This document shows, one piece after another, positions 8,424 to 62,163 of a stretch of 64,000 bases of DNA. Each line of letters begins with the position of its first letter. Position 1 is the first letter of the stretch. A program made the position numbers and the translations under genes. The notes under the pieces were generated by a model. The model had not been told where the DNA came from. It made no database searches and saw only the letters and a list, made by a program, of their open reading frames with translations. Location: IMG/VR virus record IMGVR_UViG_3300025941_000018, positions 1-64,000 of that record. One strand, 5' to 3'. The stretch comes from a virus.

Positions 8424-8821
8424 TGGGCCAGTTCAAAATCAATCCCGAGCCGTGCTCCTCCTGCCCGTATCGCCGCGACACGCCACCCGGCATTTGGGAT
8501 CGCGAGGAGTACGACAAGCTTCCGGCCTGGGACGATGAAAAAAACATGGCCGCTGGCGCGTTCCTGTGCCACCAAGGACAACGGCAATTCCTGTGCCGTG
8601 GCTGGTCTGAGGTCCATCATCGCAACTGGGCGGTGAGAATTGCCCTGTTGCAGTGCGCGCCGCCGCCAGGAGGCTGGAAGCCGTGCGCGGCGCCGCTTTA
8701 CGAGACCGGTGCAAAAGCGCGGCTTGCTGGTCTGCGTGGCATCAAGAAGCCCGGCAAAGCGGCGCGGCAGACGATTGCCAAGCTGATTAAGGCGCGGGCT
8801 GAAAAAGGAGTTGACTCGTGA
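8423..8821 (+). CDS. DUF6283 family protein
   Basis: A 132-residue protein. The N-terminal EPCSSCPYRRDTPPGIW, the EEYDKL block and the later FLCHQGQ...FLCRGW show the two Cys/His clusters of the DUF6283 family, probably a metal-binding fold found in phages and actinobacteria. The function is not known. It is the last gene before the structured-RNA region at 8895-9327. Confidence 0.85.
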   Translation: MGQFKINPEPCSSCPYRRDTPPGIWDREEYDKLPAWDDEKNMAAGAFLCHQGQRQFLCRGWSEVHHRNWAVRIALLQCAPPPGGWKPCAAPLYETGAKARLAGLRGIKKPGKAARQTIAKLIKARAEKGVDS

Positions 8822-8894
8822 GGCACAACGTGCCATTGTTTCATCGTTCGGGCCGTAGTGGGCCTGCAAGCGATGAAAAAGAACAATTTAGATT

Positions 8895-9007
8895 CCTGTT
8901 CTACTCACTTACGACTGCCGCCAGGTGGTCGCGGGTGCTCCGCGCTTGTGGAGTCCACTACAGAACAGGTTTCGTACCCAAGTTGAGCAATCAGCTTGGG
9001 GATTTTT
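8895..9007 (+). ncRNA. Candidate small structured RNA with terminator
   Basis: A perfect 8-bp closing stem, CCTGTTCT (8895-8902) with AGAACAGG (8962-8969), encloses two hairpins. One is CGACTGCC/GGTGGTCG with a GCCA loop, the other is built on CTCC/GGAG and GTG/CAC. An intrinsic terminator follows 7 nt later. The shape is a three-way junction of about 75 nt, but no tRNA T-loop or anticodon arm is present. No known RNA family was recognised. Confidence 0.45.
8977..9007 (+). terminator. Intrinsic terminator
   Basis: A 10-bp stem, CCCAAGTTGA/TCAGCTTGGG (one G-T wobble), with a GCAA tetraloop, followed by GATTTTT. This is a textbook rho-independent terminator on the plus strand. It would end transcripts of the 7016-8821 operon just before the repeat at 9019. 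Confidence 0.8.
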
Positions 9008-9018
9008 CCTGTCGGCTT

Positions 9019-9327
9019 GAACCATTGCCGTTCAGCGGTGAGAAATGGACGCGAGGGTCGGCAATGGATTGCGGTACTCGGGAACTGATTACTACCGCAC
9101 ACGTGGGCGCGAATGGGCCAGAGCGTGATTCAGCAGCCTTATACCCAAGGTTGAATAGTCTAGCCCCACCGCTCAAGGTCAAATTTTCGAGCGGAGCCAA
9201 AAGCGAAGCGAAGCGACCGACGGGCTTTCGTCAGAGCAGAGGCAGTAGCGCGTCCCTTAGGGGGCGCTCTGCCTTTTGCTCGCTCTCTCCCTCTAAGCTT
9301 TCATCAGTACAGGGCAGGATCGGAGAA
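9019..9327 (+). repeat. Structured 309-bp repeat, copy A; candidate large RNA
   Basis: Matches 29501-29809 in the same orientation at an offset of 20482, with about five substitutions before the ragged end. Perfect inverted repeats: 9022-9030/9059-9067 (9 bp), 9070-9076/9093-9099 (7 bp), 9103-9107/9165-9169, 9128-9134/9150-9156, 9169-9174/9189-9194, and a long hairpin at 9235-9280 (AGCA, AGGCAG, AGCGC and CCC arms). Two differences between copies keep pairing (A-U to G-U, G-U to G-C). It lies between an intrinsic terminator and the RNase HI gene. The RNA strand and any function are inferred, and no known RNA class was recognised. Confidence 0.7.
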
Positions 9328-9350
9328 GATCCCAGTACAGGAGCAACCCT

Positions 9351-9824
9351 ATGATCCAACCCGAATTGCTAAACCCTCCTCAAAAGTCCAATCCGCCCAA
9401 ATGGACCATCCGAATTTGGTTCGATGGTGGTTGCTCGCCCAACCCAGGCAACAAGTACGGCAGTTACGAAGTTGAGGCTTACGAGGAACTCGTACTTTCA
9501 AAGGTTCGATTCGGACTCGGACACGGGACAAATAACGAAGCAGAGTTCGAGGCGTTAGAGGCTGCTTTGATGGCGACTATCGCTTATCTCTCGGTGATTC
9601 ACACCCCGACGCCGGAAAACCGCGTGGTGATCTTCACCGACTCAATGATTTTACGAAACCGCCTGATGGGCAAGAACAGGATTTTCAAGAAGGCGAAGCA
9701 CGCGGAGAGCAGTGGTCGAATGTACCGCAAGGCCGCTCGCATTTTGGAATTGCTTGCAGTCTTCCACTCCTTCGAGGTCATATGGAGAAACCGCGAAACC
9801 AACGTCGCCAGGTTCGGACACTGA
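9351..9824 (+). CDS. Ribonuclease HI-like protein
   Basis: A 157-residue protein. It has the RNase H fold signature: FDGGCSPNPG with Asp25, NNEAEFEAL with Glu65, and FTDSMIL with Asp97. The C-terminal motif, normally N-x-x-A-D, reads ETNVARFGH, so the fourth acidic residue seems absent and activity may be reduced. RNase HI removes RNA from RNA-DNA hybrids. The start has a good RBS (AGGAG, 7 nt). It is the first gene after structured repeat copy A. Confidence 0.85.
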   Translation: MIQPELLNPPQKSNPPKWTIRIWFDGGCSPNPGNKYGSYEVEAYEELVLSKVRFGLGHGTNNEAEFEALEAALMATIAYLSVIHTPTPENRVVIFTDSMILRNRLMGKNRIFKKAKHAESSGRMYRKAARILELLAVFHSFEVIWRNRETNVARFGH

Positions 9825-11300: not shown

Positions 11301-11699
11301 ATGCTGCCCACCGCGAAGCAACCATTAACACTATCCAATAACATGAAGACGAAAAGAAAGAAACGCAGATGGACAAAAGCCGACGAAATGAAGGCGGAGA
11401 TAGACACGCTCAAAGCCGAATTGACAATCGTGCGTAGGCGCTACAAAGAGACCTGCGAGCAAGAGTCGGCAGAGCGCAGCAGAGTCTATAGCCTTACTGA
11501 GAAGTACAGTCTGATCAAGCGGGTCATGGGAGATTTACTTCTACAATCTCATCGGTGCGCGACTTACAAACCTTTAGAAAAGTTGGCTGAGACACCCCGG
11601 ATGCGAATCGCCGTTATCGGCACGTCTGGATTGGTTTGCGTCTGGATTGACGACCGGCCAGTGTCAGAAATGAAAGCCGACGACGCCCAGGAACTGTGA
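11301..11699 (+). CDS. Coiled-coil protein, unknown
   Basis: A 132-residue protein. After a lysine/arginine-rich start (KTKRKKRRWTK) comes a long heptad-containing helix (residues about 25-75) and a short beta-rich end. The ATG at 11301 directly abuts the previous stop. ATG at 11343 is an alternative and begins at the basic stretch. It is a possible nucleic-acid-binding coiled coil, which is inference. It overlaps the integrase start. Confidence 0.6.
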   Translation: MLPTAKQPLTLSNNMKTKRKKRRWTKADEMKAEIDTLKAELTIVRRRYKETCEQESAERSRVYSLTEKYSLIKRVMGDLLLQSHRCATYKPLEKLAETPRMRIAVIGTSGLVCVWIDDRPVSEMKADDAQEL

Positions 11700-12619
11700 A
11701 ATTCGACGCCGCATTCGACAAGTGGCTTGCCGCCAACGACGCCGGGATGTCGGAGGGCTCGCGCTCTGCCTACACGTTCGCTGTCCGCAGGTTCGCCGCG
11801 TTCTGCAAAGCGCATCGCCTGCAGGTCGAAGACGTTCACAAACGGCACATCGCGGCTTACATGGCTGAGGCGACTGACGAGATCAAGGGCTGGACCGTTA
11901 TGGGCCAGGTGAAGCTTTTGAAACGGGTTTTCGAGTGGGCAGTGGCTGAAGGTCTGGCAGAGACAAACCCCGTCCAATTGAAGTCGCTGCCCAAGCTAGT
12001 CCGCCATCGAGCCGATCGCACGGCCTTCACCGCCGATGATTACGCGGCCATCATGGAGCACGTCGGCGCGGCTAAGCCCTACTGGCGGCTTGCCTGTGCG
12101 CTTGCCTGGCACACCGGGCTACGCATGGTGGACGTGGCAAATTTGCAGTGGGAGCATGTGGACTTTTCGGTGCGCGTGCTGAGCGTCAAGCCAATTAAAC
12201 TTCAGCGCTTCGGACAGCAGCTCGAAATTCCAATGGCCGACGAACTGTATGAGGCGCTCATCCAACGGCACACTGAGAGCACGACCGAGGAACCGGGCGA
12301 GTACGTCCAGCCCGACATGATGATGGCCTACAAATACGGCCGCACTCGGTTAGTTGAGCAGTTCGAACAACTGCGGAAGCGCGCGGGTTTGAGCGGCGGC
12401 AGCTTTCACTCGTTCCGGCACGCAGTGGCCACGAGGCTAATAAATGCAGGCGCTGATTCCTTGGTTGTCGCCTCAATTACAGGGCATAGCCTGAAGCAAC
12501 TGAAGGAATACACTCACGTTTCAATGGAAGCCAAAAGGAACGCCTTCAGCATAGCGCAAAAAGTATTGACCCCGCCTTTCAGAAATGAGAATCTTCGCAC
12601 GGCCCTAGAACGGCTGTAA
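11696..12619 (+). CDS. int: Tyrosine site-specific recombinase (integrase)
   Basis: A 307-residue protein starting at GTG in a GTGA overlap. The N-terminal SAM-like arm-binding domain (residues 1-95) and the catalytic domain carry the full active-site set: Arg143 (HTGLRMVD), Lys165 or Lys168, His238-x-x-Arg241 (HSFRH), His264 (GHS) and nucleophile Tyr272 (KEYTHV). It catalyses integration and excision, or resolution of genome multimers. I found no clear attachment-site core next to it, no excisionase and no recognised repressor, so lysogeny is likely but unproven. Confidence 0.93.
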   Translation: MKFDAAFDKWLAANDAGMSEGSRSAYTFAVRRFAAFCKAHRLQVEDVHKRHIAAYMAEATDEIKGWTVMGQVKLLKRVFEWAVAEGLAETNPVQLKSLPKLVRHRADRTAFTADDYAAIMEHVGAAKPYWRLACALAWHTGLRMVDVANLQWEHVDFSVRVLSVKPIKLQRFGQQLEIPMADELYEALIQRHTESTTEEPGEYVQPDMMMAYKYGRTRLVEQFEQLRKRAGLSGGSFHSFRHAVATRLINAGADSLVVASITGHSLKQLKEYTHVSMEAKRNAFSIAQKVLTPPFRNENLRTALERL

Positions 12620-12712
12620 AAACAGATGCGAATAAGATTCTCCATCTCCCTTCACGGTTGCCGCCAAGTCTGTGCGGGTTCTACTTCACGGTCGGGGGAT
12701 GGCTTTTCTGTT

Positions 12713-13450
12713 ATGTCAAACGCAAAACACGCACGGAAGTACTATTGGAGCCATCGGGAGGAGGTCCTGAGGCGGGCTGTAGAGTATCGCAAGAATAACT
12801 TGGAGAAATTTCGCCTCCGACATGCAGCAAACCACCTGAAGCACAAAGCTAAAAATAACGCCTATTCCGCGAGGTACTTAGCTGAGCATCGCGAAGCGAT
12901 TAACGCCCGTAAACGCAGGTATTACGCGTCGAACAAAGAGAGAATATTACGAGCGAGAGCAGAGGAGAGGATTAATAACTTGGATGCTTTTCGCGCACAC
13001 GGCAGGGCGAAATACTGGAAAAACCCGGAAAAAGGCAGGATAGCGTGTGCCGCCTACGCCAAGAAGTATCCAGAAAAATGTGTCGCTAGGGTTGCAAAAC
13101 GTCGGGCTCGCATGGCCGCCGTAAGAACGTCAGAGGACGCGGCAACACTAATCTTTCGCTTAAAAAATCAGGCAAAAAAGATCCGATGCCACTGGTGTGG
13201 ACGCCGATTAACTTCCTCCACTCTGGAAATCGACCATATCATTCCAATTTCCAAAGGCGGGGCTCACGAGGCTGACAACTTGTGCGCAAGTTGCAAATCG
13301 TGCAACACTAGCAAGGGAGACAGGGCTTTGAAGGACTGGCACAAAAAAGGCCAGCAAATACTCCCATTAGAGCCCTCTGGTTCAACCGCCATGGGCAACA
13401 CAATTTCGCCAGTTCCAGTTGGAAACGCACAAGGCAACCAATGTTTCTAA
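12713..13450 (+). CDS. HNH homing-type endonuclease 1
   Basis: A 245-residue protein from the ATG at 12713 (an in-frame ATG at 12626 would add 29 residues). The first 150 residues are several loosely repeated, very basic helical units with KYY/RYY and NxER motifs, probably DNA-contacting. The C-terminus is a zinc HNH nuclease: CHWCG, LEIDHIIPISKGG, DNLCASCKSCNTSKG. It is paralogous to the gene at 13846. The location, interrupting coupled small genes, fits a mobile homing gene. Confidence 0.9.
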   Translation: MSNAKHARKYYWSHREEVLRRAVEYRKNNLEKFRLRHAANHLKHKAKNNAYSARYLAEHREAINARKRRYYASNKERILRARAEERINNLDAFRAHGRAKYWKNPEKGRIACAAYAKKYPEKCVARVAKRRARMAAVRTSEDAATLIFRLKNQAKKIRCHWCGRRLTSSTLEIDHIIPISKGGAHEADNLCASCKSCNTSKGDRALKDWHKKGQQILPLEPSGSTAMGNTISPVPVGNAQGNQCF

Positions 13451-13845: not shown

Positions 13846-14718
13846 ATGAAAATGCTTCTTGACCTTTCGGCACTCCCTTGGCAGCATCGTCTCGCTTTGC
13901 AGGACTCCGAGACATCTAAGGATTTGTCGCCCTCTCCGGGGGAATCTTCGCTTGTCGAGGCGTCCGCAAAGCACCCGGAGGGCGGCGATATTAAGCGTCA
14001 AATCCATTTGCGGAAGAAAGCGGCGCGGATGCGGGCCTGGAGGTTGAGAAACCCTGAAGTAATGAAGGCAAGAAACCGCAAGTGGTACGCTGAAAATAAG
14101 GAGTGCATTTCAAACAAGGCGCGACTGAGATATGCGGCAAACCCATCTGTTAAAATATCGAACAACAGGGACTACTATCGACGCAATCGAGAAAAAGTTA
14201 ACGCTTACAACAAAAGGCTTGTCGAAAGAATCAAGCGAGAGCAGCCCGAGCGCTACGCCGCGTGGCTGCGCAAGACATACGAAAACGCCAAGCCAGGCTT
14301 AGTGGAGTATAGACGCCGTCCAGAAATTAAGGCACGCCACCGCGTTGAGAGCAGGCGGTGGGAAGCGGCAAATCCAGAAAAGCGGAGAGCAATGAATCGC
14401 TCTTGGGTTGAAAGAAACAAAGAAAAAGTAGCCGCAGATCGCAAAGCTCGAAAGGCGCTACCAGAGGACAGGCCAGGGGTTGATGAATTTCTTCGAAAAG
14501 TTTTTAGCAGGCGATTTATAAAATGCTACTATTGCCAACGAAGGACCAGCACGAAGGCGGTTCACGTTGACCATATTGTGCCGAGAAGCAAGGGAGGAAA
14601 AACAAAAGCCGATAACCTTTGTGCCGCCTGTCCAGACTGTAACCTTTCCAAGCACGCAGCGCTAATTCCAGATTGGCAGAAACGCCGCGACCACTCGCAG
14701 CAAATCTTGCACTTATGA
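13846..14718 (+). CDS. HNH homing-type endonuclease 2
   Basis: A 290-residue protein. A non-conserved 50-residue leader is followed by a basic helical repeat region like that of the gene at 12713, then an HNH core: CYYCQRR, VHVDHIVPRSKGG, DNLCAACPDCNLSKH. Both CxxC pairs and the DH motif are present, so it should be active. It overlaps the next glycosyltransferase start by 4 bp. Confidence 0.9.
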   Translation: MKMLLDLSALPWQHRLALQDSETSKDLSPSPGESSLVEASAKHPEGGDIKRQIHLRKKAARMRAWRLRNPEVMKARNRKWYAENKECISNKARLRYAANPSVKISNNRDYYRRNREKVNAYNKRLVERIKREQPERYAAWLRKTYENAKPGLVEYRRRPEIKARHRVESRRWEAANPEKRRAMNRSWVERNKEKVAADRKARKALPEDRPGVDEFLRKVFSRRFIKCYYCQRRTSTKAVHVDHIVPRSKGGKTKADNLCAACPDCNLSKHAALIPDWQKRRDHSQQILHL

Positions 14719-17115: not shown

Positions 17116-17364
17116 ATGATAGACGCCGATGACGAATTTCGATACGCGCAACTCGATATCCTTGAGGTCGTGCAGCGCAAACTAGCAATCATCAATGCCC
17201 AGCGGAACGAAATCATGGAAGCCTTTATAGCCAAGCATGGCTTCGACGCGGACGAGGCAGTCCAAGTCGTTCAGCGGATGCGTGATGGAAGCGAGAAGTT
17301 CTTTATTCGCAAGCGCACGCCAGAGGAAATGGAAATGCTCAATAGGCTTAGTTCAGAATTATGA
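17116..17364 (+). CDS. Small coiled-coil protein
   Basis: An 82-residue, highly charged helical protein beginning 3 bp after the methyltransferase stop and overlapping the next start. Heptads (LEVVQRKLAIINAQRNEI) suggest a coiled coil. No family is recognised. Confidence 0.65.
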   Translation: MIDADDEFRYAQLDILEVVQRKLAIINAQRNEIMEAFIAKHGFDADEAVQVVQRMRDGSEKFFIRKRTPEEMEMLNRLSSEL

Positions 17365-18146
17365 AGAAACTTTTGGTCAGCTATTCAAACTGTCAAGGGT
17401 CGGGTGCCCTGTTCTTCCTCAAGCGCACGCACCTTGCCGAGGAATACGAGATGCGGCAATGGAACAACTGGCAGTGCATGCTCGATGAGGTAGATCCGCA
17501 GGCGATGCTAAAGGACGCCACCCAGGCGGATGTGTTTCTCTATCAGCCAACCGACCGCTTCGAGAGTCGGGCGGGCTTCAACGTGCCGAGTACGGACGAA
17601 ATAAAGAGCCTGCTAGTTCCAGACGGATGCCAGTGCATTTCGTTTGCCTACGCATACAACGATGGCTTCTTCCCCCTCCTCAAGCACGGCGACTGGAAAA
17701 CCGGCAATCGCGCTAAAGAACTCGCCGCCATCAGCCCCTACCGTCTCTTCGCTGCCTACAACGCTGATCTGACCTACGACTGCGCGCGTCGGTTCGTGGA
17801 ATGTTTGAGCGAGATGTCCAAGCGCGAACAACTCTGCGACATCAAAATGGTCCCGTTCATCCTGAACACCTACCGCGATACTCGGCTCTTCCTAAACGAG
17901 AACCATCCATCATCATTCATGTTCTGCCACCTGGCGCAGCAAATTTACATTCAGATCAAATCCGAGAGTCCCGACGTGACGAAGATGCTGACTGCCGACG
18001 AGAACGAAGTGAACCTGCCGATGGGCATTAACCCAACGCATCAGTCAGTGGTCAACGAACTGGGCCTGCGCTATCTCGCCGACGAACGCGCCCACGAGTT
18101 TTACCGCAACTGGTTTGAACAGTATTTGAAGGAGATGAAGCCATGA
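17361..18146 (+). CDS. WcbI-like polysaccharide acyltransferase
   Basis: A 261-residue protein. The opening LLVSYSNCQGSGALFFL matches the GNCQG motif of WcbI (a GDSL/SGNH-like enzyme of capsule biosynthesis), followed by DVFLYQPTDRF (the DxxIxQP block), GINPTHQSVVNELGL and a C-terminal helix. WcbI proteins are thought to acetylate capsular sugars. It ends the glycan cassette begun at 9849. Confidence 0.8.
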   Translation: MKKLLVSYSNCQGSGALFFLKRTHLAEEYEMRQWNNWQCMLDEVDPQAMLKDATQADVFLYQPTDRFESRAGFNVPSTDEIKSLLVPDGCQCISFAYAYNDGFFPLLKHGDWKTGNRAKELAAISPYRLFAAYNADLTYDCARRFVECLSEMSKREQLCDIKMVPFILNTYRDTRLFLNENHPSSFMFCHLAQQIYIQIKSESPDVTKMLTADENEVNLPMGINPTHQSVVNELGLRYLADERAHEFYRNWFEQYLKEMKP

Positions 18147-19337: not shown

Positions 19338-19648
19338 TACAACTCCAAAACGACACCAAGATCCGCTTCGTAAACGCCGTCGATGCGCTGCTTACCCATG
19401 CCCGCGAGTGTGAAGCTTGCACCGAATACATGCAGACCGGAGAGGGCGACCTTTGCGACTGGGCCAAAATCAGCCTTGCTCACGAGATGGCTTTCGCCGA
19501 CATGAAGCCGATCATCGACGAGAACTTCGTCTTACTCCCCGACGCGGCGACAGGCCCCTGCCCGCCCGCATCGTTGTCAGAGAGCGTCCTACCATCCGCG
19601 GTGACAACCCTCGCCGAGAACCCACACGGGCACCTCGACTACGAGTAA
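19334..19648 (+). CDS. Small protein with Cys pair, overlaps giant gene
   Basis: A 104-residue protein. The first 70 residues look like a real domain (ALLTHARECEACTEYMQTG, then a helix), with a CxxC pair. The last 45 are low-complexity and antisense to the 3' end of the giant minus-strand gene (137 bp overlap, 19512-19648). It is the last gene of the plus-strand module, meeting the virion module tail to tail. Confidence 0.6.
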   Translation: MIQLQNDTKIRFVNAVDALLTHARECEACTEYMQTGEGDLCDWAKISLAHEMAFADMKPIIDENFVLLPDAATGPCPPASLSESVLPSAVTTLAENPHGHLDYE

Positions 19649-22600
19649 GGCCGCCGCCTAGTCCGCCGCCCAAGGTTGTCCCGCGTGATGCTGTGGCCAG
19701 CCTGGGAGTGCCTGAAGCCCCGCCAGGCCCACCCACAGCCGGTGCCACAGCCGCACGGCTTGCCGCAGGCGCTCCGCCGCCGCCTATAGATGCCACACTA
19801 ACCCCAACCGACTCCAAAGCGTCTTGATTCGCCCGCTGGAACGCTTTAGCGACGGCGACCTTGTCACTGCCATCCAATCCTTGAAGTTCCTGCTTGAAAT
19901 TCACCCCTCGCTGCACCGTGTAATCTTGTAACTCCTGATTCGTCATCGGCCTGAAATCGTTGCCGATGGCGTAGCCCTTATTTGGATTGATGGACGGTGG
20001 TCGATAGCCGCTTTCAAACACTGCCACGTAGGGTGCCTCTTCCAGTTGCGCTTTCACCGGCAGGGGATACGTGCCTGACAGCATCGTCTGGACGTAGTTC
20101 TGAACGGCATCAGGAGTGCCCACAGGGTCGCCCATGAAGTTGACTGCCTTGTGCCCGCTGGTTGGAAGCGCGACCAGGAAGTCCATGAATGTCGCCTGTC
20201 GAGGATCGAGATGCACGCCGACCGCCCGCATCTGTTCTTGCCAGCCAGGGAGCCCGGGGACCACGGGGCTGATATACGACGCCGCGAGCTTGGTCGGACT
20301 GAAGCTGCCTGCCTCCGTGAACGACTGCGCGGCACCGGTCAGGGTCTTGCCGGACATCAGCAGAGCCAGCGCCGATTCGGCCGCAACTTGGAAGCGCTCC
20401 ATGGTAGTAGGAGGCGGGATTTTGCCAGGGGTAAGACCCTTCTTCTCTGCCTCTTGGTTCATGGCGGTCTGCTGCTGTGTGCGCCGCTCAATCAAATCCT
20501 TTGCTGCCTGCGCGCCGCCGGCATAGGGAGCCAGGAAAGTGCCGACGCCAACCGTCGTGCTCAGTCGGTAAACATGGTTGTCGCCCAGGTTGATCTCGAT
20601 GGTTCCCCATTTGTGGCCTGCCTTCTCAGCCAAGTCACGTTCAGCACGATCCATCGGTGGCCGGCCAAAATATTTCATCAGGTTGTTGAACACGGCCCAA
20701 ACTGCGATTGCGCCAAAAGCGGTGCCAAGCAAGGCTTGAAAACGGCGCTGCCAAACGTCCTCCTCGGTGGTGAAATAAGGCGACGGTTCAGCCCCGCGTG
20801 GCCGCATGTTAGCCATCGCGTACAGCGGCGTGTTCATAAACGCCCAGTTGATGCCGGTGCCGATGGCATTCGAGAACTGGGTAAAGAACCCCGGCAGCCC
20901 GGCGCCGCGCAACATGCTTTGCGCGTACTTCAGCGGCACGGTAACCAGCGCGCCCGGGCCAGTCTTCACCGGTTCCTGCCATGCGGACAGCCGTTTGAGC
21001 AGGTCGGCGCGCTTCTGGAACTCATCGGCGGGCAAATGGGCCATCCGAATCTCGTCATACATGCGGCTGAGAACGAGCGCCGATGCCCGCTCGACCAGTT
21101 CAGCCTCAGTCAGCGTCTCGCCAGCGGCTGCCGCTATCCTGCGAGCATCGGCCAGGGCGGCATCTCGCTTCGCCGGCAGTCCCTTGAACACCCTGTCGCG
21201 AATCACTAATCGGTCAGCCAGCAGAAAGCCCTTCTGGATGAGGCTCGAATCGACAAGGTTGGACATTTCAGTCATCTCGACCGCCGTACCCTGCCAGGCA
21301 TCCATGGCGCGGATGAAGTGCAAAGACCACTTCACGAGTCCCAGGAAGCGCAGTGCCCCGGCCTGAGCAGTCTTGCCTTGGGCATCCAATTCCTTAGCCT
21401 TGAGTTCCATCCGCTCGAAAGCCTGAACTCCGGACATCAAACGCTCGACGTTTCGGGTCTCGCCGCGATTGAGCAATCCTGCCCTGAACGCCAGCAGCCC
21501 TGGCTTAATGGCATCCACGGTCTCTTTGAACCCTTGGACCATCGTGCGCCCGAGGTCTCCCCATGCCTGCCCGATGGACTCTTCGCCGCGCTCCACCCTT
21601 GCTGCCACGAATCCCGCAGCCCGACTCGGAACGTGCATCAAGAACTGTGTTGCCATGTGGAGTGGTAGCCGGAAGCCGAACCCGGTCTTGAGCAGCAGAT
21701 TGGCAATCTCGAACTCGTTGGTCGCCGCAGCGATGTTCTGCCGTGTAGCCCAGAACTTCGACCATTTGATGGGCTGCGTGAGCCGTGCCCAGCGTGCCGC
21801 TAATTCCCGGTTGGCTGCCCCGATCTTCCCTTCCATGGTCACCATGCGCTCACGGCGGGCCTTCTCGACGTCGCCACCAGCGTCTTTGATTTCTTCCGGG
21901 GTAGGTTCGGCCAGCCGCTGGGCTCGCTCGCTCAACTCCCGCATGATGCGGATCTCCGCTGGGCTGGGTGGCGTGTAGCCGTTGGCCTTCGCAATCTCGG
22001 CGATGATGGTCGTCGGATCGGCACCACCAGCATTGAACATTCGATGCAGTTTCTCGACCACATTGCGCCTGCGCATCTGTTTGCGCTCCTGTGGCGTCAG
22101 AGCGTCGATAGCCTGCTTTCCAGCCGCTGCCAGCGCTTTGGTCATCGGGAGCTTAAACGCCGCCTGGAACATCGCCTTGACCTTGTCCACCTGCGCTGGG
22201 TCGATGCTCAGATCGCGGACCATGTGGTCGGCAAACCTCTCAGCCAGCTCGTCCTGGCGGTAAAACGGGGTTTCCAGCACTTGCTTGGTCAAACTGCTGA
22301 CATTTGGCACCAACCGCTGAACCACGCCCTTAGCCGCCACATTGTCAATCATGGGCGTGTCGATGCCACCGGCGCGGATGATGCCTTCCAGCTTGCCTTT
22401 GGCCTCATCAAGCCGCTTGGCGCGCGCCTCCGGGGTGATCGGCGCCACGTCGAAGGTGCGATCTGCACCCTTCAGGAAGCTTCGGGTAATCCGTTCTTCC
22501 GCTGCCTGCAGCCGTTCGGCCAGGTAGGTCCAGGTCACGGCTTCCAGATACGTGCGGGTTGGCTCATCTAAGGCGTTGAACTTCTCGGCCGTAGCGATTT

Positions 22601-25600
22601 CCTCACTCTTGCGCTCAATCCATTGCTGCTTTTCAGCCCTTGTCGAGGTTGCCAGGCTTTCCAATTCCTTAGCCGACACGTATTTCGAATCGACGCTGCG
22701 AATCAGACGGCGCGTTCGGTCGGTCTGGAAGCGTGGGTCTCGCGACACCCCGGCGTTAATCAGCCCGCGCAGACGCTCGGATGCCGTCTTAGGCACGTTC
22801 GCCTTCGGGTCGAAGAAATTATCCACGACTCGCTGCTGGGCTTTCTTCAATTGGGCGAGCATCTGCTGCTCGATGGCGTTGTAAACCCGAAGCTTGGTCT
22901 CCGGAGATGCAGCGGACATATCCACCACAGCCTCGATATTATCCATGAAAGCACCCATCACGCGGGCTTTCTCTTCATCCTCGGACTTCGCCAGCTTCAC
23001 CAAGTCAATGCGGGTGTCAGCGGGCTTGACCTTGGGGTCCTCGAACTTCGTGCCTTTGAAATGTTCACTAAGCACCTGCCGCACGAGCCGCATGGTTGTC
23101 GGGTTGTAGCCAAGGTCTTCGCCAATCTTCTCCCAGTGCGCGTACTTCGGCAGCTTCATACCTTCGTCGATGAACTGCTGTGGCGGCATCACACGCTCAT
23201 TGCCTGGTCCTGCCAGGTCGATTTCCGTCAGCATGTCCTCAAGGGCGGCCTTGCGCTCCGGGTCTTTCTCGCTGGTCGCGTACTTCTTCAGGATGACACG
23301 GCCCGCATTCCACTGCGCTTCTTCCAACGCCCATTCGAGGGATTGCCCAATCGCATCAGCGGTCTTCGGATCGAGCATCAAATGGAGTTCTTCCATCGCC
23401 GTCAACTTGGTCTTGCCTGGACGCGGCTTTGGCTCAATGCCGTATTTGGCTTTCAGCCGCTCGAGTACCTTGTCGTAAGCCTCATTCTCTTTGCTCTTGA
23501 GCGCGAGTTGTTCTGGGGTCAATGGTTGCTTGGGTGCCAATGCTCGCTGCAAGCGTCGGTACAACCTGCCGCCTTGGTCCTGAGCACTCAGCCGAATCAG
23601 TGTATTGATGAATGTCCTCGCGTCGGGATGGCCATTAAGCGCGTCCTCGATCTCTTTGGGCGTGAACAGATCGCGGAAATGGGTCAGCGCCCGCTCAATC
23701 ACTTTGCGGATGCCGTCGCCATTGAATGCCTGCGAAAACTCTTTGTGCAGATACACGTCCACGTTGCGGCCAATCACGTCCAGCCCGGGCTTGAGGCGGG
23801 AGAGGGCCGACAGCGCGGCGCCCACGCTGCTAATCTCGCCCTGAGCCACGGCAAATAAATCATCGCGCAGTCCGGTCGGTAGTGTTGCCATCGCTGAGCC
23901 CGGCACGTTGCTGTAGTTTAGGCGCACGGAATTGAGCAGGTGCATCAGCAACCCATTAGCCTTCCCGGGTTCATTCTGCGCTCGAATCTCAGCCTTCATC
24001 CGTTCCAGCAGCTTCTCGAATTGCTCCCGTTGATCCTCGCCACTGGCGTCAAACCGATAGACTTCCTTCTCCATCTTGCCCGTCTCGGGGTCCATGACGG
24101 CAGTATCGGTGAACGGGATCTTAAGCGAGTCCAGCACGGTCTTGCTGAAATCCTTCATTGTGGCGATCTGCGCAGCGGTCTGTCGGCTGAGCACGCCGAA
24201 GTCCGTGCCCATGACCTTCGTCTCCGTGTATGGGCTTGGCGGCTCTTCTTCGCTCGGGCCGAGAGACGCCATCAATCGCTCGTGCTCAAACTGATTGCCG
24301 CTCTCCGGTGTGGTATCAAATCGCCCAGCCATCACCGCATCGAGCACATCGTTCTGCCGCGGCCGCATTCGCAGGGCTTTGCGAAGTGCCGACAGGAATT
24401 GCTGCCAAATCGCTTTGACCCTGGCCCAGAAGCCCTCGACGACAGAGCCAGCCTTTTGCTCAAACCTGTCGCTGAACGAGTGCGCGAAATATTCTTCGTC
24501 GTTCGAATGGTGATATAGCAGCTTCTCGTAACGCTTCGGATAGTTGCGGGACAAGAAGTCCTTGGTGTCCACCGTCGGATTGTCGCGCAGGTCAGTTAGC
24601 GCAGCGGTCAGTTCGGCGTTGCCCTCATTCTCTTTCAGTAAGACCTCAATGCTCGCCAACTTGAGCCTGTTTATCTCTGCCCGAATGTCTTCTGGAAGGA
24701 CGTTCTGGTAAAGCCAGTGCGCAAATTCATGTGGCAGAGTCTTCGGGTCGGCGGTTCGACCGAACTGAATCAGATTTTGAAGTGTACTTCCAGCGTATCC
24801 GTTCTCCACTGCGTCAGTGATGACAACTCGAACACCTTCGAAATCTTTCGCAACGGGCAAATCCAGCAGCGCATTCGCCAGCCTGACAACTTGCGGAGAT
24901 AACCCCGCGTCCTTGGCGTTGATCGCCGTGCGCAACTCTTCGACGGTGCGGGCTTCGACGGGCTGACGCTCGCGCAACGGCGAAGTCAACTCTTCCGTCG
25001 GAGTGCTGGCCATTGCGCCAGGTTCGCGCATCGCAGGCGTGATGGCGATAGCGTGAACCGGAGTCGTTATCGGCACTCCGATTTGCTGCATGGCTTTTTC
25101 AGCATCAGCCCTGCTCGAAAACTGCGAGGACAGTTGCTCTCGCACCCCGTCGGGGGTTCTTCCGTAAACAACCCAAAATCCTTGGAACGAACCCGGCTCA
25201 ACTTTGAGGTCGGTCATCCCTTCTCCTTCGCGCTCGCCAACCGAAATGCCCTGCGTTCCAACCTTCACCCCCGCCTTCTTCACCGGAGCCAGATTGTTGA
25301 CGACGTTGGGTAGGTCTTGGTCGTAGAGTTTTTTGAGGCCAGCGCCACCGACTCTAAGATCCAGACCGGTGAAGTCCTGTTGCTCTCTGCCGTCTCTGGC
25401 AGCGGCAGCGGCCTTCTCGCCAAGTTCTTTGCCGATGTAATCGGACAGTTTGTCTGCGGAAATTCCAGAGGCAATCTCATACCAGTTGCCCTCGGTTTCG
25501 TGACCCACGCGCCTGACGGAAACGTCCACTTTCTTTCCGTCGCCTGAAATATTCTCGACGCGGATAGCCGACACATGCTTGCTGAGATCATATCGTTCCG

Positions 25601-28600
25601 CTTGTTGAGTCCCCGTCGTCCAACCAACTGCTTCAAACCCATTCTCTGCCGCATGACGTAAAGCCCAACGCATCGCAATCTCGCGCCAGTGCTTTTGAAA
25701 CAGGGCGGGCATCTTCTCGAACTCGCCTTTTTGAGGGGGTTGGACCTCCTCAAGAAAAAGCATTCGCTTGCCGTCTGCCGCGGCACGTTCGTTATAGCGG
25801 AGGCGAACGATGGGATTTGGAATGGCGGCGTACTGCGAGTGGCCGTCGCGCCAGCCGGGCTTTCCCGTGATGGATTGAATTGCATCCTGCTCCGTCGCTC
25901 CGCTGCCTCTATTTAGACCGCTTTGACCCCTGACGATCCATAATCCCCTGCCGTCTGCCGTCTCGACCTTTTCAAGCGTGAATCCTTTCGGAAGGGCTTG
26001 CGGTGTTTTTACTTCCGGCACGGTCAACAGTACTTCGCGATAGCTGCCCTCCTTTGCGCCAGGGAGTGTGTATTGGGAGAAGTGGGTGTCGGTTGTCACT
26101 GGCCCCATCTCGACCTCGGCGCGATCAGCGTCTATGTTCTGTAAAGCTTCGGTTTCATCGTAATGCCCCGGAGCTGATCCGACGTAATTCCCATCAACGA
26201 AACCAACCCAGTCCTCTGGCTTGTGCCAGTCGTGTCCGGGTATCTGCGACTGCTCGTCCGGAGTGAGTGAACCGAATCGACGCAGTTGCGCGGCAAACTT
26301 TTTCTGTCCCAACGTCACATCCTTCACTTGAATCTCATTCGCCTTGAGATAATCCAGCACGTCGGTCTTGGTGTAGGTCTTACCGTCCTCCAAACCATCG
26401 ACGCGCATCAATGCCCATTCGTCTTTGAGCACACCAGGACGATTGCGCAGTTCAGCTTTCCACTGTGCGCCGGTTGCTTTGCCTGTGCGACTGGCCATCG
26501 CCTGCTTGAGAATGTCGCCCAGCGCGGCTTTCTCGCCTTCTGTCGGTGGTTCTTCGGCGGCTGGTGTCGGCGCTTCCGGCTCTGGCTTGGTTGGTTCAAT
26601 CTTTGGTTTCAGGTCGGGGTAGTCCGCGAGAACTTCTGCGGGCACGTCCTTACCTTCGCTTAGGGCTTGTTGAACGGCGAGCTTGTGGCTCTGCGCTTCG
26701 CCCGCCATTGTGAGTTCTTCGTTTTTCACAATGCCAGCCCGCATCCCGGCTCGATTCACACGATCAAAAGCTCTGGCGTTCGCGGCCTTTATCCAGTCGC
26801 GGCCTTTCTGCGTTTTGGCTTTTAGGTTCGATCCGCCCTTTACCTTCTTGGCCTCAAGGTCTCCCGATTTAATAAGGGCTTCTGACTCAGATCGCAGGGT
26901 TTCTCGAAGTTCTGATTCAGTCTCAACTTGCGGGCCTGCGTCCGTTCGCGGAAAACGTGCTTGGTAATCTGATTTCGTCATCTGCCATGGCTCTTTGGAC
27001 GGTTCGACGTTGGGCGTGACAGGCGCACTCACAACCTCCTTTCCAATGTCCGAAAGGTCGGCTGCTGCTGGTGGCATCGGCTTCTGCGCGGGTGGAGGCG
27101 GCACTTGGCTGACAATCGTTTCGCCAGGATAAAGGCTCGCTGTTGACCATGCTCCATCTTTCACACGGCTAATCATCGGCGGCACACCGGGCACCTGCTC
27201 CCAGTAGCCACCGAATGCGGCTTGGTAGGTCGAACCGTCGGGCCGTTGGATGGTGACTGCGGTGTGGTTTGGTGGCAGTGGCGGGATGCTGGCCGCGCCT
27301 GAAATCTCTGTTATTTGTGCTTTTGGAATTACGTCCGAGTAATTGATTCTCGCAAGCCTTTGTTGAACGATCTTACCGTCATCGAGGAACACATCCAATT
27401 GGGCGGGGTGATTAAACATCGCCCTGCCACCGGCGTTATGTTTTTCTGGGCGCAGTCTCGCTATGTAGTTCTTTCCGCCGGAGGAAAACTTCATTGCGTG
27501 TGTGTATTGACCCTCGTCGCCCACTTCGGTCGAAAGCACGTATGGGTCGGATTCAATTGTCCGCTTAATGTCGGCTCTAAACACCGGATTGTCCGACATT
27601 GAAGCCAGAGCTTTCTGCCGATTTGACAGAGGCTTTGGTGGTGCGGGAACTACCGTCGGCTGGGTCGGCGCTTGGGTGACTGGCGAGATTTCTGGCGTGG
27701 CTTCGGGCGCGACGACAGGCGGCGTCCCTTGACCACCTTGCCCACTTTCTCTGGCAGGCTGCGGTACGACACTGGGGCTTCCTTCTGCCACTTGTGCAGC
27801 AGGTCCGGGCGGTTGACCGCCGCCCACTTCCACTGGTGCTTGCTCTTGATTGGCATTTGGTCCTTGATTTAAGAGGCGCGTGGCCTCGGGTTGAACTGTC
27901 GGCACTGCTGACGGTTGGGCTACTGCCGTGGCCTGACCTTCTGGCGTCACTTCGACCGTGCGTTTACGGCCGCCTTTGATGCCCAGCATCTGCGCAAGTT
28001 TCTCAGGCCAGCCTTGCTCGACAATGTTGACGCCTTTTGTGCGGGCCTCTTTGATATTGCCAGGACCGCCGCCAACCTGTCGGCCAAGTTGGTCGTTGAT
28101 CATCTGGACAAGATCCTTCTCTGACTGTGTGGCCGATTCATCACCGCGTTGGACTCGCGTGTAAATGTCTCGTAGTTCTTCGGGCGAATAACTCTCGATC
28201 ACCTTGCGAGTTGCTAGCGTGTCGGCATTGCGTTCGACCCACGCGCGAGTCTTGCTCGGCACTTTCTTGCTGAATCTGCCGATGCCAAGCAGGGAGAAAC
28301 CCAAGTTTGTGCCGATGATCTCAGCCAAGTGCAAAGCCGCGCCCTGCGGGTCGGACTTCATCTGCGCCAGCAGTTCCGGAGTCTGGGTTGCTGTCATGTA
28401 GCCATCGAGCGCTACCTGTTCGCCGATTGTTTCCAGCACCTTCTGCGCCGTCGCATTGATCGGTGCGGCCCCGCCTTTCGCCAGCGTCTTGCCAATCGCC
28501 GCGGCGACCGCCGTCTTTCCGACCAGCCCAACGCCTGGCAGCAGGGACGCGATCAGCGCCTCCTTTGGATGGAAATTCCCCTCGTCGTCTATGCCGAACA

Positions 28601-29243
28601 ATCCGCCAGCGGCAATTGACTGCGCGATCAACCCCTCGGGAGCCACGGCGAGCAACGCGAAGTTTGGCGCGGCCTTGGCCAAACTGAGGGCTGTGGCGCC
28701 CATCGCCGTTGCAACTGGAAATTCGCCACGGTCTTTTTGCTCCTGGGCTGAGGCTTGTACGGCCTGCTCGACTGGCAGCGGTTCTTCTAACGGTGCCGCG
28801 ATATTCGCCTTCGTCAGATTCGGTGCCGTCGCGGTGCTTGGCCGCATGACATTGGCGATGTCGCCGAGTCCACCCATGACCGCTTTACCAGCCAGCCGCC
28901 GCGTCTCCGTGAAACTCAATGGCCGCGCATTCGGGGCTTCCGTCCCGCGTATGTCCGATTTATCCGGTGGCTCTGGTGGCGGCGGGTTCGACTCCCAACT
29001 GCTGCTAACGGGCGGGATGAAGGCTGTCGGGGTTGGGGATGGCCGCGATGAAACCCTTGCTTTGACTGGCGCTGGCGTCTCAACCGGGGTGCCGATGTCG
29101 CTAAGGTCGAACGGGTCTGGCGCTTTGGCTGTTGGCACCGGCGTCCCAATATCGCTCAAATCCGTGGGCTGCATCTCGCGCCTGGGAGCAGGCAAAACCT
29201 CAGTGCCAATGTCGCTCAGGTCCGTTTCGTCCATTACTGCCAT
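19512..29243 (-). CDS. Giant polyvalent internal virion protein with zincin domain
   Basis: A 3,243-residue protein. The N-terminus has three DLSDIG repeats in 50 residues (a fourth at about 735) and Pro-rich linkers, then hydrophobic segments (180-260). About 900-1260 carries polyvalent-protein LPD blocks (TGAQWKAELRNRPGVLKDEW, YNERAAADGKRMLFLEE, WTTGTQQAERYDLSK). HEFAHWL at about 1505 is a zinc-protease HExxH motif. Long helical stretches follow, then an LPD38-like hydrophobic region near 2850 and an Arg/Gly-rich basic tail. This class is packaged in the head and ejected with the DNA. Cleavage or antirestriction roles are inference. Confidence 0.85.
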   Translation of the reverse strand: MAVMDETDLSDIGTEVLPAPRREMQPTDLSDIGTPVPTAKAPDPFDLSDIGTPVETPAPVKARVSSRPSPTPTAFIPPVSSSWESNPPPPEPPDKSDIRGTEAPNARPLSFTETRRLAGKAVMGGLGDIANVMRPSTATAPNLTKANIAAPLEEPLPVEQAVQASAQEQKDRGEFPVATAMGATALSLAKAAPNFALLAVAPEGLIAQSIAAGGLFGIDDEGNFHPKEALIASLLPGVGLVGKTAVAAAIGKTLAKGGAAPINATAQKVLETIGEQVALDGYMTATQTPELLAQMKSDPQGAALHLAEIIGTNLGFSLLGIGRFSKKVPSKTRAWVERNADTLATRKVIESYSPEELRDIYTRVQRGDESATQSEKDLVQMINDQLGRQVGGGPGNIKEARTKGVNIVEQGWPEKLAQMLGIKGGRKRTVEVTPEGQATAVAQPSAVPTVQPEATRLLNQGPNANQEQAPVEVGGGQPPGPAAQVAEGSPSVVPQPARESGQGGQGTPPVVAPEATPEISPVTQAPTQPTVVPAPPKPLSNRQKALASMSDNPVFRADIKRTIESDPYVLSTEVGDEGQYTHAMKFSSGGKNYIARLRPEKHNAGGRAMFNHPAQLDVFLDDGKIVQQRLARINYSDVIPKAQITEISGAASIPPLPPNHTAVTIQRPDGSTYQAAFGGYWEQVPGVPPMISRVKDGAWSTASLYPGETIVSQVPPPPAQKPMPPAAADLSDIGKEVVSAPVTPNVEPSKEPWQMTKSDYQARFPRTDAGPQVETESELRETLRSESEALIKSGDLEAKKVKGGSNLKAKTQKGRDWIKAANARAFDRVNRAGMRAGIVKNEELTMAGEAQSHKLAVQQALSEGKDVPAEVLADYPDLKPKIEPTKPEPEAPTPAAEEPPTEGEKAALGDILKQAMASRTGKATGAQWKAELRNRPGVLKDEWALMRVDGLEDGKTYTKTDVLDYLKANEIQVKDVTLGQKKFAAQLRRFGSLTPDEQSQIPGHDWHKPEDWVGFVDGNYVGSAPGHYDETEALQNIDADRAEVEMGPVTTDTHFSQYTLPGAKEGSYREVLLTVPEVKTPQALPKGFTLEKVETADGRGLWIVRGQSGLNRGSGATEQDAIQSITGKPGWRDGHSQYAAIPNPIVRLRYNERAAADGKRMLFLEEVQPPQKGEFEKMPALFQKHWREIAMRWALRHAAENGFEAVGWTTGTQQAERYDLSKHVSAIRVENISGDGKKVDVSVRRVGHETEGNWYEIASGISADKLSDYIGKELGEKAAAAARDGREQQDFTGLDLRVGGAGLKKLYDQDLPNVVNNLAPVKKAGVKVGTQGISVGEREGEGMTDLKVEPGSFQGFWVVYGRTPDGVREQLSSQFSSRADAEKAMQQIGVPITTPVHAIAITPAMREPGAMASTPTEELTSPLRERQPVEARTVEELRTAINAKDAGLSPQVVRLANALLDLPVAKDFEGVRVVITDAVENGYAGSTLQNLIQFGRTADPKTLPHEFAHWLYQNVLPEDIRAEINRLKLASIEVLLKENEGNAELTAALTDLRDNPTVDTKDFLSRNYPKRYEKLLYHHSNDEEYFAHSFSDRFEQKAGSVVEGFWARVKAIWQQFLSALRKALRMRPRQNDVLDAVMAGRFDTTPESGNQFEHERLMASLGPSEEEPPSPYTETKVMGTDFGVLSRQTAAQIATMKDFSKTVLDSLKIPFTDTAVMDPETGKMEKEVYRFDASGEDQREQFEKLLERMKAEIRAQNEPGKANGLLMHLLNSVRLNYSNVPGSAMATLPTGLRDDLFAVAQGEISSVGAALSALSRLKPGLDVIGRNVDVYLHKEFSQAFNGDGIRKVIERALTHFRDLFTPKEIEDALNGHPDARTFINTLIRLSAQDQGGRLYRRLQRALAPKQPLTPEQLALKSKENEAYDKVLERLKAKYGIEPKPRPGKTKLTAMEELHLMLDPKTADAIGQSLEWALEEAQWNAGRVILKKYATSEKDPERKAALEDMLTEIDLAGPGNERVMPPQQFIDEGMKLPKYAHWEKIGEDLGYNPTTMRLVRQVLSEHFKGTKFEDPKVKPADTRIDLVKLAKSEDEEKARVMGAFMDNIEAVVDMSAASPETKLRVYNAIEQQMLAQLKKAQQRVVDNFFDPKANVPKTASERLRGLINAGVSRDPRFQTDRTRRLIRSVDSKYVSAKELESLATSTRAEKQQWIERKSEEIATAEKFNALDEPTRTYLEAVTWTYLAERLQAAEERITRSFLKGADRTFDVAPITPEARAKRLDEAKGKLEGIIRAGGIDTPMIDNVAAKGVVQRLVPNVSSLTKQVLETPFYRQDELAERFADHMVRDLSIDPAQVDKVKAMFQAAFKLPMTKALAAAGKQAIDALTPQERKQMRRRNVVEKLHRMFNAGGADPTTIIAEIAKANGYTPPSPAEIRIMRELSERAQRLAEPTPEEIKDAGGDVEKARRERMVTMEGKIGAANRELAARWARLTQPIKWSKFWATRQNIAAATNEFEIANLLLKTGFGFRLPLHMATQFLMHVPSRAAGFVAARVERGEESIGQAWGDLGRTMVQGFKETVDAIKPGLLAFRAGLLNRGETRNVERLMSGVQAFERMELKAKELDAQGKTAQAGALRFLGLVKWSLHFIRAMDAWQGTAVEMTEMSNLVDSSLIQKGFLLADRLVIRDRVFKGLPAKRDAALADARRIAAAAGETLTEAELVERASALVLSRMYDEIRMAHLPADEFQKRADLLKRLSAWQEPVKTGPGALVTVPLKYAQSMLRGAGLPGFFTQFSNAIGTGINWAFMNTPLYAMANMRPRGAEPSPYFTTEEDVWQRRFQALLGTAFGAIAVWAVFNNLMKYFGRPPMDRAERDLAEKAGHKWGTIEINLGDNHVYRLSTTVGVGTFLAPYAGGAQAAKDLIERRTQQQTAMNQEAEKKGLTPGKIPPPTTMERFQVAAESALALLMSGKTLTGAAQSFTEAGSFSPTKLAASYISPVVPGLPGWQEQMRAVGVHLDPRQATFMDFLVALPTSGHKAVNFMGDPVGTPDAVQNYVQTMLSGTYPLPVKAQLEEAPYVAVFESGYRPPSINPNKGYAIGNDFRPMTNQELQDYTVQRGVNFKQELQGLDGSDKVAVAKAFQRANQDALESVGVSVASIGGGGAPAASRAAVAPAVGGPGGASGTPRLATASRGTTLGGGLGGGLTRSRGARVGSRRGLSPRMVGRSLTTMRAGRGLSPRRGVRRSSRR

Positions 29244-29277: not shown

Positions 29278-29454
29278 AGAAAGAAATTCTTTGACAGTAG
29301 GCGCGAGACGTGGAAAAGTCGAAATGTTCAGGCGACTGACGCCAATACAAATGCAAACCAAAGCTCAATTTAGACTCCACTGGCCATCCGGTCCAAGGTC
29401 GTCTGAACAATGCCCTACCATGCGTTTGTGTGGGGGCCGGACCCATCGGATCTA

Positions 29455-29495
29455 ACCGAGGCGGATTAAACCCCGTCCTCGGTCATTTTCTTTTT
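29455..29495 (+). terminator. Terminator-like hairpin before repeat copy B
   Basis: ACCGAGG-CGG paired with CCG-CCTCGGT (10 bp, one bulge), then CATTTTCTTTTT on the plus strand. It is a convincing intrinsic terminator shape although no plus-strand gene is known upstream. It ends 6 bp before the repeat, mirroring the terminator before copy A. Confidence 0.6.
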
Positions 29496-29500
29496 CGCCC

Positions 29501-29809
29501 GAACCGTTGCCGTTCAGCGGTGAGAAATGGACGCGAGGGTCGGCAATGGATTGCGGTACTCGGGAACTGATTACTACCGCACACGTGGGCGCGAATGGGC
29601 CAGAGCGTGATTCAGCAGCCTTATACCCAAGGCTGAATAGTCTAGCCCCACCGCTCAAGGTCAAATTTTCGAGCGGAGCCAAAAGCGAAGCGAAGCGACC
29701 GACGGGCTTTCGTAAGAGCAGAGGCAGTAGCGCGTCCCTTAGGGGGCGCTCTGCCTTTTGCTCGCTCTCTCCCTCAAGGCTTTCATCAGTACAAGGCGGG
29801 GATCAGGGA
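29501..29809 (+). repeat. Structured 309-bp repeat, copy B; candidate large RNA
   Basis: The second copy of the 9019-9327 element in the same orientation. Differences from copy A: A to G at 29506 (keeps the 9-bp stem through a G-U pair), T to C at 29633 (turns G-U into G-C and completes ATTCAGC/GCTGAAT), C to A near 29714 (would weaken a short 4-bp stem), and two adjacent changes near 29776-29779. After about 29809 the copies diverge. Here it lies antisense to the surrounding virion operon. Confidence 0.7.
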
Positions 29810-29833: not shown

Positions 29834-31138
29834 TTACTGAATAATCTTCGCCCCTCTCCGCAAAGCAATCGGCACATTGACGCCCAACACGTCGTACACC
29901 CGGCCATCAGCCGAGAGCATTCGAACGGTGGCATTTGTGCCAGCGGCTTTCGGAGACTGGACGGACATGATGTTGGGTGCCTGAGCGGTGACCGTCGTTG
30001 TCGGCATTGAGGCTTGCTGAGTGTTGTCGATCATCGGAGCCATCGCGGGATCCTGAACGAGACCGCGTGATGCAACGTCAGGCAATCGGCCAAAGCGAGA
30101 TTCGCCGTACATCTTGGCAACCTGGGCGCGAGGAAGTCGAACCAGACCAGCGCTCGTCGGCCCATAGGCCGCAGCCTCATAATCGGCAGGCTGAACATTT
30201 GCCTGCACGTCAATTGGAGGCTGCATCATCCTAGACACTGTATCAGCGATATTGGTGCCCGATTGCATTCCTCGCCGATCCGCCGGGTGCGTCATTTGAT
30301 ACGTGACTCTGTCAGCCTGGGACATGGCCTCATCTCCGCGTGCAGGACGTTCCCACACGCCGCCCGTCGTCGGAGTCCAGCCATTGGGCGCAATCACATC
30401 GGGAGTTGGGGCACTGCTTGTGCCGGAGTTGCCCGACGGATTTAAGTTTTGGGATTGTGATACGTTTCGATGTGAGATTTGCATTTGCCGTTTATCCGGA
30501 TGCATGGTGGGCGGAGGGTTTAAGGCGCTCATCCAAACCCCAGTTTTCGGGTCCTGATAAACTGTTGCGTGAATCTCTTTGTAAGTCTGATCTTCCGGGT
30601 GAGGAGAGGGTAGAGCGTCTAGTTCAGTTTTGTACTGTTTTTTGCTCTCGACCGCGATGGATAACGGGTCGTTCTCGGCACCGTTTATAAGCTTGCTAAG
30701 CGCGTGACCAATTCCACCATTTTCTTTTATAAATTTATCAATCTCCGCAATATTTGACGTTAGTTCATTTCTTCGGTTCAACACATTGGCGTGCGCGGTA
30801 GAAACGTGGAAATCGCGCTCAAGATTCGCGACTGCATCGGAGTTTATGGCATTTAGACTGCGATCAATTTGCGGGTGCAATCCCGGATATGCACTGGAAG
30901 CGTAGCGCCCGGCTTTTGCGTCCATCAATGCCGAGCGCTCAATCGCCGGAGAATTGCCGGCGCCTTGCATGATTCCCAAAACTTGAAGTGCTCGCCCGCT
31001 AGCTACTCCCATTCCGCGCCCCATCGACTCAAGAGCCTGTTGGTCCATTTGCGCGTATTGAAGTTCACGCTGCTGTCGAAGGGCGGCTTCTCGGTCTGCT
31101 GCTGTTTGCGCAGCGCTGAATGTGTCGCCATAGGCCAT
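29834..31138 (-). CDS. Internal virion-type protein
   Basis: A 434-residue protein. The N-terminal 180 residues are helical (AAQTAADREAALRQQRELQY), followed by a Pro/Ser/Asn-rich disordered middle and a small C-terminal domain (ATVRMLSADGRVYDVLGVNV). No enzyme motif is visible. Its place directly upstream of the giant polyvalent gene fits a core or ejection protein of short-tailed phages. The role is inferred from order only. Confidence 0.6.
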   Translation of the reverse strand: MAYGDTFSAAQTAADREAALRQQRELQYAQMDQQALESMGRGMGVASGRALQVLGIMQGAGNSPAIERSALMDAKAGRYASSAYPGLHPQIDRSLNAINSDAVANLERDFHVSTAHANVLNRRNELTSNIAEIDKFIKENGGIGHALSKLINGAENDPLSIAVESKKQYKTELDALPSPHPEDQTYKEIHATVYQDPKTGVWMSALNPPPTMHPDKRQMQISHRNVSQSQNLNPSGNSGTSSAPTPDVIAPNGWTPTTGGVWERPARGDEAMSQADRVTYQMTHPADRRGMQSGTNIADTVSRMMQPPIDVQANVQPADYEAAAYGPTSAGLVRLPRAQVAKMYGESRFGRLPDVASRGLVQDPAMAPMIDNTQQASMPTTTVTAQAPNIMSVQSPKAAGTNATVRMLSADGRVYDVLGVNVPIALRRGAKIIQ

Positions 31139-38831: not shown

Positions 38832-39059
38832 TTATTCGATTAAAATGGGTTCTCCATCCTCGGTCAGAATTTCCTCACCGTCTTCGGTAAGAATCGCGTC
38901 GGGATCGACATCGCCTTCATCAGACCCGCCGCCAGCCGCGCCGGTCCATCCAGTTGGAGGACTTTGCGACTCTCCGCCCGAATGACGAGCACACTCATGG
39001 GCGGGGTCTGGATGCCGCAAAGAGGGCACATAGTTGATCCCATTACCGTCGCCGTTCAT
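38832..39059 (-). CDS. HPDPAHEC-motif protein A
   Basis: A 75-residue protein. The N-terminus MNGDGNGINYVPSLRHP-DPAHEC is nearly identical to that of the gene at 62005 and similar to 61586. A conserved His-Pro-Asp-Pro-Ala-His-Glu-Cys stretch, then HSGGE-x-QS, could bind a metal. The C-terminus is a short acidic repeat (ILTEDGEEILTEDGEPILIE), reminiscent of tail-fibre tips. The function is unknown. Confidence 0.75.
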   Translation of the reverse strand: MNGDGNGINYVPSLRHPDPAHECARHSGGESQSPPTGWTGAAGGGSDEGDVDPDAILTEDGEEILTEDGEPILIE

Positions 39060-62004: not shown

Positions 62005-62163
62005 TCAATCAGGAGGATTGTCATTAATCGGCGCTTCTGGATCGCCATTCCAGTCCGATGGATGAGACTGCGGTTCGCCTCCACTATGGGACGTACATTC
62101 ATGCGCTGGGTCTGGATGCTTCAACCCGGGCACGTAAAGGAAGCCATTGCCGTCGCCGTTCAT
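62005..62163 (-). CDS. HPDPAHEC-motif protein C
   Basis: A 52-residue protein. The first 30 residues are almost the same as those of the 38832 gene (MNGDGNGFLYVPGLKHPDPA, then HECTSHSGGEPQS), and the sequence just before the ATG is alike too. The rest is short and acidic. It ends 2 bp before the next gene. Confidence 0.7.
   Translation of the reverse strand: MNGDGNGFLYVPGLKHPDPAHECTSHSGGEPQSHPSDWNGDPEAPINDNPPD

Follow-up and report, generated by a model that had tools for sequence, protein, structure and literature searches.

Results and Discussion

A Repeated Core in Two Opposite Settings

The window analyzed here is a stretch of 64,000 nucleotides from a record of 75,295 bases that belongs to an uncultured virus (IMGVR_UViG_3300025941_000018). 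A direct repeat of 300 nt is found at positions 9004 and 29486, with a spacing of 20,482 nt and an identity of 96% over the 300 nt. The core of this repeat is 295 bp in length and occupies 9019-9313 (copy A) and 29501-29795 (copy B). The two cores have the same orientation and are 98% identical, with six substitutions and no gaps. Copy A lies on the plus strand in the same sense as its neighbors, a DUF6283 gene before it and an RNase H gene after it. Copy B, a structured RNA candidate with the same predicted plus-strand fold as copy A, is flanked by minus-strand open reading frames at 29834-31138 and 19512-29243, which confirms the claim of an earlier note on this DNA that the copy runs against the surrounding virion genes. 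Beyond copy B, the plus strand holds only the antisense of virion genes until the terminase at 51545. The reading frame at 19512-29243 encodes a giant protein of 3243 amino acids that is probably a large polyvalent phage protein; near residue 1506 it carries a HEFAH motif of the metallopeptidase-like type, and it matched no family.

The two ends of the record (positions 1-137 and 75159-75295) share an overlap of 137 nt that contains a single mismatch, so that the genome is probably circular, with a length of 75.2 kb, or circularly permuted. Another contig of this virus, IMGVR_UViG_3300009177_000063, has 8188 bases identical to the window and stops at window position 9147. Judged from its coordinates, this contig would cross the record ends (approximately 40.7 kb via the join to 9147), in keeping with a circle. 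Within the cores, A and B first differ at 9024 and then agree as far as 9150. Position 9147 is 9024 + 123, where the graph of an assembly made, presumably, with k = 123 would be forced to fork if two copies were present. The contig end thus supports the existence of two genuine copies in that sample.

Predicted Fold of the Core

The architecture predicted by RNAalifold for the plus strand consists of two hairpins, P1 and P2, followed by a multi-branched domain in which P3 closes P4-P7. P1 spans 29504-29549 in copy B (9022-9067 in copy A), P2 spans 29552-29581 (9070-9099, with a z-score of -3.4 in copy A), and the domain closed by P3 spans 29585-29786 (9103-9304). The strongest hairpin is P7 at 29716-29763 (9234-9281), with -34.0 kcal/mol over 50 nt and a z-score of -5.7 in copy A. 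P7 was flagged as a terminator by the terminator scan. In the predicted fold, however, its TTTT forms part of the stem and the closing strand of P3 comes next, so that P7 is more plausibly one arm of the multi-branched domain. P1, P2, P4, P5, and P7 each exceed dinucleotide shuffles in stability, and the folding z-score of the whole core is modest (-1.9 to -2.2).

The minimum-energy folds of the plus strands of the A and B cores are identical (-111.7 and -114.0 kcal/mol, respectively), whereas those of the minus strands differ. When the same six changes were placed at random on the plus strand, the fold was kept in 0 of 400 simulations and the stability in 0 of 400; on the minus strand, the observed change was ordinary and was reached by 0.34 and 0.25 of the simulations. 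Both changes that fall within stems, A-U in copy A to G-U in copy B within P1 and G-U to G-C within P4, are allowed on the plus strand and broken on the minus strand. The test for compensating changes yielded these two G-U-type changes and no two-sided change, and two near-identical copies provide no real covariation. Since the fold is unchanged on the plus strand yet altered on the minus strand, the core most likely represents an RNA made from the plus strand, and the folding predictions support the earlier treatment of the copy as such an RNA.

Terminators and a Shared Block Ahead of Both Copies

A hairpin resembling an intrinsic terminator precedes each core on the plus strand. The hairpin before copy A (8977-9007) consists of CCCAAGTTGAGCAATCAGCTTGGG followed by GATTTTT and has a predicted stability of -14.9 kcal/mol, while that before copy B (29455-29495) consists of ACCGAGGCGGATTAAACCCCGTCCTCGGT followed by CATTTTCTTTTT and reaches -16.5 kcal/mol. 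Each site has a GC-rich hairpin with a T-run immediately after it on the transcribed strand. The hairpin sequences differ from each other, and the distance from the end of the first T-run to the shared GAACC that opens the core (9019 and 29501) is 11 nt at both loci. The terminator-like signal on the plus strand that had been reported directly before each copy is borne out. With a compact terminator defined as a hairpin of at most 35 nt with a stability of -14.9 kcal/mol or better, approximately four plus-strand sites were found in the 75 kb outside the cores (T-runs at 9003, 29486, 53657, and 63024). The chance that two of four such sites would stand directly before both copies is on the order of 1e-6, by our own estimate from the site list, and is still approximately 1e-3 when a loose list of 94 plus-strand sites is used. 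Because compact strong terminators are so few on the plus strand, their association with the copies is not accidental.

Farther upstream, a block with the consensus AAAGnnCAATTTAGAYTCC stands approximately 135 nt before both cores in identical register, at 8878-8896 before copy A (AAAGnnCAATTTAGATTCC) and at 29360-29378 before copy B (AAAGnnCAATTTAGACTCC), on the plus strand in both cases. A 13-nt part of this block occurs in only two places in the window, and the next best match has two mismatches. The in-register identity of the two loci over 8880-9018 is 39%, while 400 other offsets average 25% and never exceed 34.5%, and over 8880-8910 it is 58%, a value equalled at none of 600 offsets. 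The upstream flanks, described earlier as otherwise dissimilar, are thus related. Because the block keeps a fixed register before both cores, the unit extends beyond the repeat, and from the sequence it would comprise at least the block, the terminator, and the core, or about 430 nt. The presence of a diverged flank beside a core that is 98% identical suggests one of two histories: the cores are kept alike by recombination, or the core was recently copied between two similar settings.

The shared block is a candidate promoter or a candidate site for processing or protein binding. Its use as a general promoter of the phage was considered and rejected, since matches with mismatches elsewhere are at chance level and no -35 box occurs in a common position. 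The 5'-region of locus A is strongly folded in prediction (8822-9010, plus strand, -84.2 kcal/mol, z-score of -6.1) and ends in the terminator. In a genome-wide scan of 1252 windows of 120 nt, with z-scores based on simple shuffles, the segment at 8881-9000 on the plus strand ranked first. The 5'-region of locus B is less strongly folded (z-score of -3.0), and no common predicted fold was found for the 5'-regions of A and B. The block is thus more likely a DNA site or a short RNA motif than a part of a common 5'-fold. The region at 8822-9010 contains three predicted hairpin domains ending in the terminator and may represent a small RNA of its own.

A scan of 2 kb around each locus revealed no sigma-70-like promoter, in agreement with the view that little room is left for a normal promoter at the copies. 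Read-through or processing of a transcript that starts upstream of the terminator, one of the origins first suggested for the RNA, is favored by the conserved block approximately 135 nt before both cores; in view of this block, an internal promoter, the other suggestion, is the less natural source. The third suggestion, a phage-specific polymerase, found no support. The giant 3243-residue protein was rejected as a virion RNA polymerase since it has no T7/N4-type polymerase motif by pattern search. A family scan for T7-type RNA polymerases gave no match in this genome and none in the control genomes.

The Open Reading Frame across Copy A

The most troublesome loose end is an open reading frame of 178 amino acids at 8818-9354 on the plus strand, which spans copy A. 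A good ribosome-binding site, AAAGGAG, lies 7 nt before its GTG at 8818, and its start and end overlap the neighboring DUF6283 and RNase H genes. It could be argued that this frame encodes a protein coupled between those two genes and that copy B is a duplicated piece of it; the frame is open through both copies, and four of the six changes between them are synonymous. However, the excess of synonymous changes is weak (p 0.07), and the codon score of -0.15 per codon is below that of all 30 reference genes (leave-one-out, lowest value -0.077). The codon scores of the repeat are negative in six of six frames, no codon-position GC pattern is seen in the frame, and no protein family match or relative was found for its product. 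At copy B, the same frame meets a stop before the core, and its C-terminus runs into unrelated sequence. On these sequence properties the frame is probably not a gene, and we regard a protein-coding origin of the repeat as very doubtful.

Searches for Relatives and Comparison with Known Systems

The core has no match in Rfam; the few hits below threshold were chance matches of the miRNA type. No homolog was found among isolated phages and plasmids, and searches of IMG/VR and genome contigs with exact core patterns returned the same virus only. The remaining pattern matches were 17-19-mers attributable to chance, including one within a terminase gene. A covariance model of the core (R1) recovered both of its own copies and gave no match in 28 remotely related records. 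Relatives sought through the neighboring genes were equally scarce: the 434-residue and DUF6283 proteins had none, the RNase H had generic relatives only, the giant protein gave short and weak matching segments, and the best relative of the terminase (61%) is on a contig of 13 kb in which the loci are not included. The core is most likely an orphan phage noncoding RNA present in two copies.

To our knowledge, few phages carry large RNAs, and most of these RNAs are still unexplained. The GOLLD and ROOL RNAs are likewise folded noncoding RNAs encoded by phages, and GOLLD combines a steady 3'-part with a variable 5'-part, somewhat as in the present element (PMC12286853). The core described here is much smaller than either of them (659 nt for the ROOL studied and often over 800 nt for GOLLD), and these RNAs often lie near tRNAs (PMC12286853), whereas no tRNA genes were found in this phage and the Rfam covariance models of GOLLD and ROOL did not match the element. 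On the features tested, membership in GOLLD, in the put RNAs, or in the group IIC introns fails; the latter two are taken up below with the readings that they bear upon.

Proposed Expression and Rival Readings

Since copy A runs with its neighbors and copy B against them, the product most likely acts in trans. We consider it an even proposition that copies A and B are paralogs, each a gene for the same folded noncoding phage RNA, which would act in trans and be read from the plus strand and expressed from upstream of the terminator. Transcription would start near the shared block, and a part of it would stop at the terminator hairpin to give a short leader RNA. The remainder would read through, or be processed at the hairpin, to yield the core RNA, which would act in trans rather than as the leader of the next gene. 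The transcript of copy A may run on into the RNase H gene, while that of copy B would run against the virion operon. A more specific proposal, which we advance tentatively, is that the element represents a new class of phage RNA of about 430-490 nt, whose variable 5'-part holds the one fixed block together with a terminator-like switch and whose folded 3'-core does not vary. The two copies, oriented oppositely with respect to their surroundings, would be homogenized by recombination, and the RNA would act in trans on the machinery of the host or the phage.

The position of copy B admits another explanation. It lies antisense in the gap between the 434-residue gene and the giant gene, just before the latter, and no terminator-like site was found on the minus strand between about 25,760 and 31,830. 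Virion transcripts should thus cross copy B, the virion mRNA should carry the complement of the core, and an antisense effect between copy A and the virion mRNA is possible. An early RNA from copy A could form a duplex of 295 bp with this complement in the leftward mRNA and lead to silencing or processing, with copy B being a target site and not an RNA gene; near-perfect complementarity would also hold the copies alike. A mere target, however, needs no plus-strand terminator in front of it, no shared block at a fixed distance, and no changes that preserve the plus-strand fold, and we judge this explanation unlikely. We are similarly disinclined to see in the repeat two recent copies of a small mobile element which, like group IIC introns, would insert just downstream of terminator hairpins, although the sharp boundary between a 98% identical core and diverged flanks and the placement of both copies right behind a terminator T-run would suit it. 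Terminator hairpins are target determinants of group IIC introns (PMC3898094), one phage example is known, and introns without an open reading frame can be mobilized in trans (PMC12350094). The present element shares with these introns the position directly behind an intrinsic terminator and differs from them in several respects: neither the group II intron models (D1-D4 and D5/D6) nor group I introns gave a match in Rfam up to an E value of 5, 295 nt is well short of the ~600 nt typical of group II introns without an open reading frame (PMC12350094), and the block shared in register 135 nt upstream means that more than the core is common to the two loci. Both the reverse transcriptase family (RVT_1) and, with respect to the omega RNAs of IS200/605-IscB/TnpB elements, the TnpB-type nuclease family (Cas12f1-like_TNB) are absent from the genome, with positive controls in each case.

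Repeats, hairpins, and terminators also occur at origins, and the phage carries recombination genes of the ERF and YqaJ types, so that an element acting at the DNA level (an origin or a site for recombination or packaging) may be envisaged. It is improbable in our estimation, since the preservation of the fold is strand-specific and involves G-U pairs, as expected of an RNA, and since neither copy shows iterons or a marked turn in GC skew. A cis-acting leader RNA for the downstream genes, such as a put-like antiterminator, would be compatible with the location of copy A just before the RNase H gene and has a precedent in phage HK022, in which two similar structured RNAs, putL and putR, are found in different transcription units, one in each early operon (PMC9378689). 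The put RNAs are about 70 nt long with two stem-loops, act in cis, and are sense to the genes they serve, unlike the present element. Terminators and genes on the same strand downstream are found for copy A and not for copy B, beyond which a cis effect would be idle. The opposite orientation to the neighbors also argues against this reading, which we hold to be highly improbable.

The trans-acting RNA read from the plus strand is thus the interpretation that we retain, and for now the element is a well-defined candidate. If it is confirmed, a two-copy RNA with a fixed block and a terminator would offer a compact case for the production of an RNA behind a terminator, and the copy that opposes the virion genes from within their block would offer a case for one RNA that serves or interferes with late genes.

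Other Features of the Phage Genome

Several further features were noted in the window. A pair of HNH/endonuclease VII-like genes (12626-13450 and 13846-14718, plus strand) lies close together behind an integrase gene (11696-12619). The phage also carries a WcbI-like polysaccharide biosynthesis gene at 17361-18146 on the plus strand. A motif of 41 nt (containing CACTCATG and GGGGTCTGGATG) occurs in three imperfect copies at 38992-39032, 61953-61993, and 62096-62136 that are 78-85% alike.
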